DNA of 64,000 nucleotides from Terebella lapidaria (Eukaryota; Annelida; Polychaeta; Terebellida; Terebellidae), in NCBI GenBank assembly GCA_949152475.1, contig OX424563.1, positions 10,203,001 to 10,267,000 of the forward strand. The letters run 5' to 3'. Made by a program: the position numbers and the translations under genes. Position 1 is the first letter of the stretch, and each line of letters starts with the position of its first letter. Of this stretch, positions 10,555 through 14,611 are shown piece by piece. The notes under the pieces were generated by a model. It was not told the origin of the DNA. It did no database searches and saw nothing but the letters and a program-made list of their open reading frames with translations.

Positions 10555-13500
10555 ATGGAGGTCTCTGCCGTCCGTAGACTGTGCCATGCCACACGCCAGC
10601 TTCCCGACAGTCTCAGCGATATAACGCCTCCTGTCTTAGATGCGATCGATTCCACGTTACGAAATGATAAACGCCTCGCGGACTACATTGCCGCTTTAAA
10701 CGTGGACAACCTGGAAGAACGGATGATAGATTTCTCGCGTGATGATGTTGTTGTGTACTGCATGGAAGATTTGTTGCATACCTTGGGGAAATACCTCGGG
10801 GCTTCGTTCACGTTTGGCGGTCACGTGACGAGGATCGGCTCGTGTATAGATGGCAGCAAAGTCGGAAAAGTCAATGAATTGGACTGTTTATATGTCATCA
10901 CTGCGGATATCAGCGCAGTACCATCTGGCAAAAATTTCAAGATTATCGTGGATGGAAAAACAATTATCCCATCCGAGTTGGTGGAACAATTTGCAGATTC
11001 AGTGGATGAAATAGCTTCGAGGTGGTTCGAATCAGTCAAGAAATCTCACGACGGAAAGCTGCAGAAATTCCCGTACAATTTCGTGGGCGTACGTTACAAT
11101 GGACCAGCAGTAACCATGGTATTCTCACCCAAGGATGGAAACCAGAGCTTCATCTCCCTAGACCTGACTACGGCCTTCACCCTCTCTGATGATCTTCACA
11201 GCACAGTGAAGAATGATGTCTTGAAGAAGCTGTCACTTGTACAGAAACAGAACCCGCATATACTCTTCAAGTCACATGGCCTCCATCTTGTTCCAAATGT
11301 GATTGATGATAACTGGTTGTTGTCAACTGCAGAACTAGAAGCAGAACTGCTGCGGAGTCTACAAGAAACATCCCCATTGAAACGGGCCTTCAACTACTCT
11401 AAAATCATCAGTCATGACTTGGCTATTATCAACGAGAATGGCCTGATGAATGACGTACTGGACACGTTAAACGGCAACCAAAAAATGCCACAGGACTACT
11501 TAAATGTCTCCCGGCAACTGACAGAATGGAAGGAAGAGCGGGCAAAACAAATGAGAAATATCCATGCTCTAATGTCGAAGGAACATGCAAATACGTTCAA
11601 CGAAATGGAAAAGTCCCAGGTGTCCATCAATACTGCTGCTCTGAAACACATCCTGTTAGCTGAAGCCTTAAGCAATCCAGAAGCATTTAGCGACAGGGTG
11701 AGTGACAAAGTTGTACACGAACTGGTCCAGACGGTTTACCACAGAATAGCCACTGTTGGGGACTTTCGCATACCGCATGCATTCTTACCCTGCAAGATCG
11801 GCACGCTCTCTGTTTGTGGGTATGAGGTGTTGGCAGGAAACACACATGTTCTGCTCAATTCTGCCCAACAAGAATGCAATATGCTGCACGACAAGATGAA
11901 GCCAAAGGTTAGTTCGTGTTGATGTGTAATATTTGAAGACTCATGCTAGCAGTATTCCTGATTGGATATATATATATATATATTTATTTATTATCATAAT
12001 TTGCTGATTAAATAGAGACACATAATAAACTTTTGTTTATGTGTTGCAGCCAATCGAAGATTCTGATGAAGACAAGGCAGCATACCTTGACCAGTACATA
12101 GTGCCTGATTCTCGACTTCCGTACCCAGAGTATGTGTACGAACTTACCACAGATTTCAGTGTGTCACCATGTCGGAACCCACAAGTAGCATACACTCAGC
12201 GCATCATCAACGCTCTCTTGAACACATGTGGAGGAATTGTTGGCATGCATGGTCCTGTGGGTCTCACTGAAAGATCAACAGATAAATGGTGGTCAGCTTT
12301 CATTCAATTTCTGAAGGATGGTATCCCAGACAAGTTCGAGGACTTTATTCTCGTTGAAAATTTTTCAAGATCGATGGAAAGTTTGCATCTTCGTGTTTTG
12401 GTGAAACCTTCATTCAGGCTGATAGTACACGAATTGGTGGGCATGAAGCAAGTTTCATACTGTGTGGATAATGCTGGACACATCGTCATGAAACGTGCAG
12501 ATAGAGCAGTACGAACCCTAACCGACCGCTTGCCATGGTCATCAACGCGAGACCAGAAGAAGTCATCTGCTGATCAAGTGGGCAAAACTCCAACGGATCA
12601 AGCCATCGACAGCTTCCTGGAACGAACCACAAACGTATCCTGGACATCACACACCAGGGCATGGAGGTCACGTATAAAATACACAAAGAAAAAGATGTCA
12701 CTTCCTGAGCTGTTGAGTCAGTGTGAGATGCTGAGGCTGACGACTCCAACAAACGTAACACCACCAACGTCGTTGTACTGGCTGCCAGCAGGATTGAAAG
12801 AGTCTCTCTCCCATCAGCCCAACTCATGTGCTCTACGAACTGAATGCTGGGAGAAAACTCTGTCTGGACGTGGAAAGTCTAAGAGACTAAAACATCATTT
12901 TGGAGACGTCTTCACCTTATCTGATAACAACAAGAAGCACATGACTCTGACCAAGATCTCGGGAGAGGTTCTAGACAAGGAAGATCTTCGAATGTGGTGG
13001 ACCAGTGTGAGAGTCGCTGCGAGACTCACAAAGAAATCCATTTTGGATCAACTACGAAGACGGGACATGCTACATCATGCAACCCGTATCCACCATGTGA
13101 CTATGTGTTGCCAAATCTACAATGGCGGTCAAGGAGTCATTCCCAACAACAAGCCAGAACGAGACCTGCCAATTTGGTTCTCTGAGTGTGAAGAATGTCG
13201 GTCAGAGAGTGGAGGTTCCTGCAATACTTTGGAGGCCATGCGCATTGGGCTCGGTTTGGCACTACTTGACAAAGACAGCAACTTGAGGGTTTGTCTCAAT
13301 GACAGCATACTCATGCAGCTGACATATGAGCAAGGCTGTCAGGTTATCGAGGCTGAGAGCAAATTCAACTGGATCGAAGGCCCCCCAGGCAGTGGCAAGA
13401 CCATCATTGCTCTGTATCTCTGTGATCATTTCGGAGCAGATAACTGCTTGTACCTGTGCTCTACACGCGCACTCGGTGCATTCGTCGAGTACAAGCGGAA

Positions 13501-14611
13501 AGCCAAGACCATCGTCATCGAAGAAGGCCATGGTCTGTCATCATTCCTGAAGACACAACAGTTGAAGAGATGTATTGTAGTTGATGATGCACAGAACATG
13601 AGATGCCACGAAACGGAATGGATGACTCTGCTGGAGGCTGTGCATAGACAGGATGATGTGAATCTGTATGTCTTCGTTGACTGCGAATATCAGAATTTCA
13701 GATATGAAAACGACTCAAAACGTTTGAGGCGACGGTTCAACGAATTCTGTGAAGAGTATGAAAGTCATCCCTACATACTGCCGCTGAACAAAATTCATCG
13801 AAACAGTCAGAAAGTTGCGTCATTTTTGGCTGCTACCATTGAAGAACACTCAAAGAATGCCCATTTAACCTGTGCAAACCAAGAAGAGGGAGATGACATC
13901 GAGATCATCAAAATGCCAAACCTCTTCTCTTGCCATTCAGATAACAGCCTTATTCCTTACTTGGCGAAACTAACTGACACCTACATGGCAAACCACATTG
14001 CAGTCTTGGTAGATGGCACACAATCGAGGCTGAAAGCTGAATCGATTCGTGAAGCTATAATTAAGAACAGTCGCATGCAAGCCCACGGAGCAGATGTGTA
14101 TCCGAGAAGAGGTATCACAGTTGACACTCTTGACAACTTCGTTGGACTCGACGCACAACTGTGCATATTCATCTTTTCGGATGAGGTGTTTCGGAGAAGA
14201 TTGATGCCTTCTACGAAAGATAGACACTTCAGCAACCCAAAGTACAAGACCTTCATTGCATCTAGGGCTATTCACAAGATGGTTTTCATGACAGAAAGCC
14301 CTCTGGATCACAAAGTAGCAAGAGCCATGCACCTGACTGAATTTCCAGACGCCACAACAGAAACTGGGTAAGGGATCATCAAAATGCCTCATCTTGTCAG
14401 ATCTCTCAATGAGCTGTATAAAATTTTACCGCACAATGAACGTTTTTAATGAACATTGGCATTTTTCGTTACCAGGAACACCCTAGGCAAGACATATCCG
14501 AATTATTACAAATTGGTCAAAACAAACCATGATCCGATCCCGGCGCCTCAGAAGATAAAGAGGATGAAAGACAAGAAGATTAAAAAAATACCAAAAATAA
14601 AGTCCAACTAA
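10555..14611 (+). CDS. cGAS-like nucleotidyltransferase / Schlafen-like SF1 helicase fusion (1268 aa, 3 exons)
   Basis: Predicted exons are 10555-11907, 12050-14367 and 14476-14611 (3807 nt, in frame). The start is ATG 10555, with A at -3 and G at +4; the frame is open upstream but lacks a better ATG.

Residues ~70-430 match the cGAS/Mab-21 family: GS at 95-96, catalytic E108 and D110 in NELD, third acid D203 in FISLDLTTAF, and LVP...NWLLS...E like cGAS. No zinc thumb is visible. Residues ~475-613 match the Schlafen N-lobe (YPEYV, then INALLNTCGGIV). Residues ~870-1200 form a Schlafen-type SF1 helicase: Walker A GPPGSGKT (895-902), Walker B DDAQ (963-966), HRNSQ, VDTLDNFVGLD and IASRA. The tail (1225-1268) has 12 lysines and could be a nuclear signal.

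The family chemistry would be nucleotide second-messenger synthesis plus ATP-driven nucleic-acid binding. The Schlafen C-lobe motif with its nuclease acids was not seen. Combined function is inference; the fusion rests on splice prediction. Confidence 0.8.
11908..12049 (+). other. Intron 1 of the fusion gene
   Basis: This 142-bp phase-0 intron has donor AAAG|GTTAGT and acceptor TTTTGTTTATGTGTTGCAG|CC. A possible branch site GCTGATTAA lies about 40 bp before the acceptor. If retained, it adds VSSC and then a stop, giving a nucleotidyltransferase of about 455 residues without the Schlafen part. The next exon has no ATG near its start, which argues against two separate genes. Confidence 0.75.
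14368..14475 (+). other. Intron 2 of the fusion gene
   Basis: This is a 108-bp intron with donor ACTGG|GTAAGG and acceptor TTTTTCGTTACCAG|GA. Two codon bases lie before it and one after. Splicing replaces an immediate stop with 45 further codons. The downstream frame stays open until a clean TAA at 14609-14611, which supports the junction. Confidence 0.7.

Follow-up and report, generated by a model that had tools for sequence, protein, structure and literature searches.

The closest described relatives of the gene at positions 10555-14611 (+ strand) of a 64,000-nucleotide stretch of Terebella lapidaria DNA (contig OX424563.1; C9:10203001-10267000), here called the window, are the animal cGAS-like receptors (cGLRs, family PF03281), the group III Schlafen proteins and the poxin-Schlafen protein of orthopoxviruses. 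According to an excerpt of PMC9980059, 87 % of cGLRs are stand-alone, the fusions named there being ankyrin, TPR, death and multi-cGLR, and cGLRs that sense nucleic acid have an isoelectric point (pI) above 8.5. Group III Schlafens (SLFN5, SLFN11 and SLFN14) have a core N-lobe with the motif LLNxxGG, a core C-lobe (E209/E214/K216 in SLFN11), a linker, an interdomain helix and a superfamily 1 (SF1) helicase. Poxin-Schlafen, likened here by description, combines a Schlafen domain carrying an LLNSGGG motif with an enzyme of the cGAMP pathway (PMC7688311, in part). The window gene is predicted to join a nucleotidyltransferase (NTase) to a Schlafen group III-type scaffold in one protein of 1268 residues, which we read, with a probability of about 0.6, as a Schlafen-gated second-messenger synthase. 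Computation showed the fold, the catalytic residues, the fused architecture and that it recurs, purifying selection on the gene, the lack of the RNase motif and the presence of STING domains in the genome.

Like the group III Schlafens, the predicted protein has the core N-lobe with LLNxxGG, the linker, the interdomain helix and the SF1 helicase, and like SLFN5 it has a DD Walker B. It differs from them in the NTase at its N-terminus and in the deletion of the core C-lobe; SWAVDL was undetectable in the window, although a stretch related to it is aligned by the family profile. Compared with cGAS and the animal cGLRs, its NTase has no adjacent cysteine pair, has Ile rather than Gln or Thr before the GS, is acidic and is fused to a Schlafen. 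Poxin destroys cGAMP, whereas the partner of the Schlafen in the window protein is a putative synthase. Titles and abstract openings contained no paper on a fusion of Schlafen with Mab21, cGLR or cGAS, although Table S2 of PMC9980059 may list such a fusion among rare architectures, and no paper for Schlafen together with mollusk.

The predicted gene has three exons and the following features:

10555..11907, + strand: exon 1, predicted cGAS/Mab-21-fold nucleotidyltransferase, 451 amino acids
10837..10842, + strand: GS at residues 95-96, part of the NTase motif (25 of 25 homologs)
10876..10884, + strand: first two catalytic acids, E108 (24 of 25 homologs) and D110 (25 of 25)
11161..11163, + strand: third catalytic acid, D203 (25 of 25 homologs)
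11908..12049, + strand: intron 1, phase 0, 142 bp, GT-AG, AAG/GTTAGT...TTGCAG; junction recurs in 10 of 10 fused loci examined
12050..14367, + strand: exon 2, predicted Schlafen core N-lobe, linker and SF1 helicase, without nuclease lobe (dN/dS 0.26)
12122..12235, + strand: YPEYV...ALLNTCGG, Schlafen core N-lobe signature (YP 7/1000, ALLN 0/1000 shuffles; counterparts in alignment A2)
13379..13402, + strand: Walker A, GPPGSGKT
13583..13588, + strand: Walker B, DD (likewise in SLFN5; DE in SLFN11)
14111..14290, + strand: helicase motifs V and VI, ITVDTLDNFVGLD and FIASRAIHK
14368..14475, + strand: intron 2, 108 bp, GT-AG; corresponding donor and acceptor readable in the C12 copy
14476..14611, + strand: exon 3, short lysine-rich tail and stop; weakest part of the model

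The spliced exons amount to 3807 nt and are translated into 1268 amino acids and a stop with no frame break. The frames of exons 1 and 2 are open for 486 and 780 codons, the longest stop-free run in 2000 shuffles of the identical 3910 bases being 226 codons. An earlier interpretation from the letters of the DNA, the sequence-only reading, had joined two long frames in phase over a 142-bp intron, followed by a third exon, and both GT-AG introns and the 1268 residues confirm this observation. The donor of intron 1 at 11908 has 8 of the 9 consensus bases and is the sole donor scoring at least 7 in 11700-11930. In all ten fused loci examined, located on five contigs, a whole codon precedes the GT donor and a whole codon follows the AG acceptor. 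The acceptors were chosen by eye or by script, and the lengths of the intron counted from these readings ranged from 114 to 1904 nt, eight of the ten being 135-188 nt. All 24 public homologs of exon 1 that extend to this column carry the GT of the donor, read as Val, and their similarity fades past the next codon with no conserved stop, so that these homologs appear to continue into another exon. Since the phase-0 donor and acceptor are present in all the fused loci examined and the donor GT in all these homologs, the junction is, as judged from sequence, more than chance. The public homologs, 25 in total, share the exon boundary and may have the same architecture.

Exon 1 is, from its modelled fold, a cGAS/Mab-21-fold nucleotidyltransferase that retains its catalytic residues. 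The 50 best hits shown by Foldseek for the NTase structure model were all cGAS, cGLR, MAB21L1 or MB21D2. The 25 homologs, which have 27-34 % identity with exon 1 and form with the window protein the 26-member alignment A1, retain the GS and the acids as given above, and GS and the catalytic triad were intact in all six fused NTases inspected, spanning all three fused subfamilies. The GS-x11-ExD and third Asp of the sequence-only reading were thus located as claimed, and together with the fold search they agree with its proposal of a cGAS-like half. In the PDB, cGAS was found by the fold search only, neither by phmmer with the NTase sequence nor by the A1 profile. Pfam Mab-21 (PF03281) had no match in the window protein, matched 2 of the 26 members of A1 (best 6.5e-5) and gave 23.8 and 18.8 bits in the fused relatives L021 and L032 (cut-off 24.1) and no match in L009 and L022; SOCS_box, matching 5 of the 26 A1 members (best 0.0064), was taken as chance. 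No adjacent Cys pair (CC) was found in the NTase of the seven fused copies scanned (L022 being partial), adjacent cysteines being the zinc thumb pattern of vertebrate cGAS. The NTase half is acidic, with a pI of 5.94 in the window protein and 5.4-6.3 in six of seven fused copies, and the window NTase lies below the pI of 8.5 that marks nucleic-acid-sensing cGLRs. The cGLR search motif h[QT]GS[X8-20][DE]h[DE]h[X50-90]h[DE]h (excerpt of PMC9980059) was not matched, Ile standing before the GS (R-I-G-S in the window protein, [NDS]-I-G-S in the 25 homologs), and exon 1 is therefore described by its cGAS/Mab-21 fold, as an NTase outside the cGLR set of that source.

The sequence of exon 2 identifies it as a Schlafen group III-type scaffold, consisting of core N-lobe, linker and SF1 helicase. 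Among 177,635 PDB sequences, exon 2 matched SLFN5 (1.1e-5) and SLFN11 (0.001), the next match having an E of 1.1. In the PDB, a profile built from six fused and 11 stand-alone members of the family, 17 altogether, matched SLFN11 with 1.6e-29, SLFN5 with 1e-28 and SLFN14 with 7e-18, the best non-Schlafen matches being SF1 helicases (0.0035). The stretches of this profile that were aligned to SLFN11 were the core N-lobe, the core C-lobe, the linker with the helicase N-lobe and, weakly, the helicase C-lobe. Pfam SLFN-g3_helicase (PF09848, cut-off 24) was passed by the fused L009 (24.2 bits) and L021 (26.4 bits), the window being just below it (21.1 or 23.1 bits) and other members scoring lower than the cut-off, among them L022 and L031 with approximately 16 bits.

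Sixteen Schlafen motif blocks were scored against 1000 shuffles each. Helicase motifs I (0), Ia (1), II (0) and V (7) and the interdomain helix (3) were clear, and motifs IV (49/1000), VI (186/1000) and IVb (269/1000) were weak yet in the correct order; motif III was not seen in place (562/1000 shuffles as good). The Schlafen type proposed earlier for exon 2 was borne out by the family profile. YPEYV and ALLNTCGG are at residues 25-29 and 55-62 of the exon-2 product. In the window, the N-lobe YRR block and three core C-lobe blocks had best matches that were misplaced or no better than chance. For the SWAVDL linker motif, 804/1000 shuffles scored as high, the stretch aligned by the family profile being the one that holds SWAVDL in SLFN11. 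The core zinc finger was scanned with its CC block alone, the best match being out of place (22/1000). A single-sequence structure model of exon-2 residues 1-177 had a pLDDT of 44. Pfam NPHP3_N exceeded its cut-off both in L009 and in the window, where it reached 27.1 bits over approximately 60 residues around the P-loop; an NPHP3/STAND NTPase identity was rejected because of the match to the Schlafen profile, the presence of a core N-lobe and the order of the SF1 motifs. NCBIfam gave nothing useful.

The RNase motif E-x4-E-x-K was present in 16 of the 16 stand-alone loci covering the site (14 of 14 stand-alone frames, and L015 and L016, where it lies in a separate frame upstream; the partial L025 does not cover it), versus none of ten fused copies (absent from eight of eight and from two found later, L041 having sequence that reaches just past Walker A). 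Stand-alone here means that no NTase was found, none being listed within 6 kb upstream of the remaining 46 Schlafen places; among the 24 loci L009-L032, a sensitive profile of the NTase matched only the 7 fused ones. The family profile aligned the stretch ESQLVEFK to the E-x4-E-x-K of the paralogs. In the window the core C-lobe is deleted, the tblastn match passing from the full N-lobe straight to the linker, and the stand-alone L004 has approximately 210 more residues at this position; a MAFFT alignment places the window gap elsewhere. The fused copies on C16 have kept part of the lobe, with the RNase residues gone. Pfam SLFN_AlbA_2 was above its cut-off in L004, L014 and L024 and below it in the other members. 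The sequence-only reading had proposed an AlbA_2 search of the 1268-residue protein, from which the nuclease-bearing AlbA_2 lobe turned out to be missing; by its alignments, the window protein is related to the Schlafens but derived, the nuclease lobe having been lost. Frames downstream of the helicase in L004, L005, L008 and L022 share the wording '...VGT..GL.LYDV', which suggests a repeat-type C-terminal domain in some relatives. L024:1651-7113 (- strand) contains a frame of 1821 amino acids with an AlbA_2 match from residue 965, its long N-terminal extension having no Pfam match at E 0.001 and possibly representing another fusion.

The genome searched comprised 761.6 Mb in 438 contigs. Sequences similar to exon 2 were found at at least 58 places including the window (E <= 1.2e-51; 58 scored of 302 candidates) and sequences similar to exon 1 at at least 99 places including its own (87 after merging), both counts being lower bounds. 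An NTase was located upstream, within 6 kb and on the same strand, at 12 of the 58 Schlafen places, approximately 0.02 pairs being expected under even scatter with clustering ignored. These twelve are on C9 (the window), C12, C13 (eight places) and C16 (two). Eight further NTases were sampled (L041-L048), and two of them, on C5 and C9, were followed by a Schlafen exon. In-phase fusion thus recurs in a multigene family, which excludes one of the two cases that the sequence-only reading had named as its refutation, halves that are always separate genes in relatives.

The closest relative, L009 on C12, has both exons in the same layout, with 84 % and approximately 73 % amino acid identity. Between the window and this copy, exons 1 and 2 had dS values of 0.584 and 0.588 and dN/dS of 0.15 and 0.26 (0.17-0.21 in the helicase blocks), and intron 1 was only 53 % identical. 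Equal dS, low dN/dS and the diverged intron indicate that the halves were duplicated together and that both are under purifying selection. In a helicase tree the fused rows need two label changes, with weak support, and the fusion may have arisen once or several times. The protein collection, searched with the full length and the C-terminal half, gave no match among the 7993 scored candidates sharing most words, which says little, and no relative of either half was found in viral and genome contigs.

The expansions of Schlafen-like and NTase exons are very large and genome-wide, with many of the exons on C5 and C13. At C13:6.97-9.33 Mb the eight fused NTase-Schlafen genes are clustered on the + strand, together with two more + strand NTases (7309667 and 9219378) without a listed Schlafen partner. 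Four tandem NTase exons with an exact spacing of 2196 bp are found at C1:84409145-84416893, with no Schlafen in the 2.4 kb after the last.

In the proposed mechanism, the Schlafen half would bind foreign or damaged nucleic acid and change shape with ATP, and this change would turn on the attached NTase, which would make a cyclic (di)nucleotide to be read by STING or another receptor; the RNase output of a Schlafen would in this way be swapped for a nucleotide signal. The Schlafen half is the likelier sensor because the NTase half is acidic, unlike the nucleic-acid-sensing cGLRs described in the excerpt of PMC9980059, so that sensing more likely sits in the Schlafen half and the NTase answers. 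SLFN11 is a receptor for single-stranded DNA (ssDNA), and in its phosphomimetic form the helicase is rotated, ATP binding is gained and ssDNA binding is lost (PMC11615386, in part). SLFN5 binds ATP with no hydrolysis detected in vitro (PMC8789055, in part), and by analogy the DD Walker B hints more at a switch than at a motor. The genome encodes STING ligand-binding domains (STING_LBD, 12 exon matches over the cut-off, three with an internal stop, in about six genes by our own count, with loci on C1, C2 and C3), and a reader for a cyclic dinucleotide is therefore at hand.

Several observations weigh against a Schlafen-gated synthase. Expression as one polypeptide, ligand, gating, product and receptor are inferred. 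The Schlafen halves are not notably basic, the exon-2 products of the fused copies having pI values of 5.8-7.9, and the DD Walker B resembles that of an ATP binder without hydrolysis in vitro; the partial NTase of L022 has a pI of 8.77. In the C12 copy NPHP3_N scores higher (30.1 bits, 117 residues) than SLFN-g3_helicase. The NTase of the C16 copy L031 is split into two matches approximately 4.3 kb apart. The absence of the cGLR search motif and several further points, given below, count in the same direction and also bear on other explanations.

The roles might be reversed, the NTase product or a bound NTP controlling the Schlafen and the helicase acting as effector, with viral or retroelement replication as one possible target. 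The constraint on the helicase blocks, the location of the gene among retrotransposons and the blocking of stalled replication forks by SLFN11 (excerpt of PMC11615386) are in line with such an arrangement, but it is unlikely in view of the stronger constraint on the NTase than on the Schlafen half, the loss of the known Schlafen nuclease motif in all fused copies examined and the presence of STING in the genome. It is similarly unlikely that the NTase half has no catalytic activity and serves as a Mab21-like scaffold, in which case the fusion would give no second messenger. Human Mab21L1 has a complete putative site with no known product (PMC9980059, in part), the h[QT]GS is lacking, and the loop of residues 98-107 near the active site was poorly modelled, mostly with pLDDT below 50; the GS and the acids have nevertheless been retained almost without exception in homologs of 27-34 % identity and in the fused NTases of three subfamilies.

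Separate NTase and Schlafen proteins, coming from neighbouring genes or alternative transcripts across a gap that is merely intron-like, are considerably less probable. Stand-alone Schlafen paralogs with their own ATG do exist, in subfamily B a pair of ATGs lies directly at the exon-2 acceptor, where a separate product could start, and for six of the further eight NTases, L042-L047, the 2.4-3.4 kb downstream contained no Schlafen, which implies that members of the NTase family can occur unfused or that some introns are longer. In the window, however, the first Met of exon 2 is not before residue 66 of its product, so that exon 2 cannot start as its own gene in this frame without losing the conserved N-terminus, and upstream of the YPEY motif there is no Met in either the window gene or L009; the conserved donor without a conserved stop, the ten in-phase junctions and the equal dS of the halves also argue against separate proteins. 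That the fusion is an artefact of the assembly or the gene model, or arose by chance and is decaying, is scarcely credible even in a repeat-rich neighbourhood. Barring mis-assembly at every one of these loci, it is already contradicted by the window and C12 copies, which are intact, lie on different contigs and have a dN/dS well below 1, and by more fused loci on C5, C9, C13 and C16.

With the Schlafen-gated synthase as the preferred explanation, the sequences of the fused family, in whose examined copies the usual RNA-cutting motif is absent, suggest an immune alarm in which one protein links sensing with a chemical signal. A broader proposal, put forward tentatively and with slightly less than even confidence, is that of a new class of animal pattern-recognition receptors, an old and expanded family of Schlafen-gated cGAS-like enzymes in which the tRNase has been given up and the scaffold drives a cyclic-nucleotide synthase. 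How cGAS-like enzymes beyond the sensors of double-stranded DNA and RNA are activated, and which roles Schlafen helicases have beyond tRNA cutting, are largely open questions. A natural fusion hints by association at what activates what, in a form testable with one recombinant protein, and the RNase motif, gone from every fused copy examined and kept in stand-alone paralogs, gives a clean prediction of an exchanged output.

The window also contains several repeated elements. A long terminal repeat (LTR) retrotransposon with reverse transcriptase (RT), RNase H and integrase is located at 18854-23394, its 206-bp direct terminal repeats being 99 % alike. A Gypsy-type element on the minus strand (33217-42842) is probably recent, since its direct repeats are identical over the 300 bases compared. 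An element present in two copies 4796 bp apart (46755-56244) has an RT and a phage-integrase-like (tyrosine recombinase) frame, as do DIRS elements. Arrays of a 134-bp satellite flank the gene in opposite orientation (4566-8424 and 30610-31997), and the same satellite is found behind the C12 copy (L009:9181-9890). A 20-bp minisatellite with inverted arms (9189-9694) lies approximately 0.9 kb upstream of the gene, and an open frame of 175 amino acids, with no Pfam match at E 0.01, is located at 28388-28912 on the minus strand.

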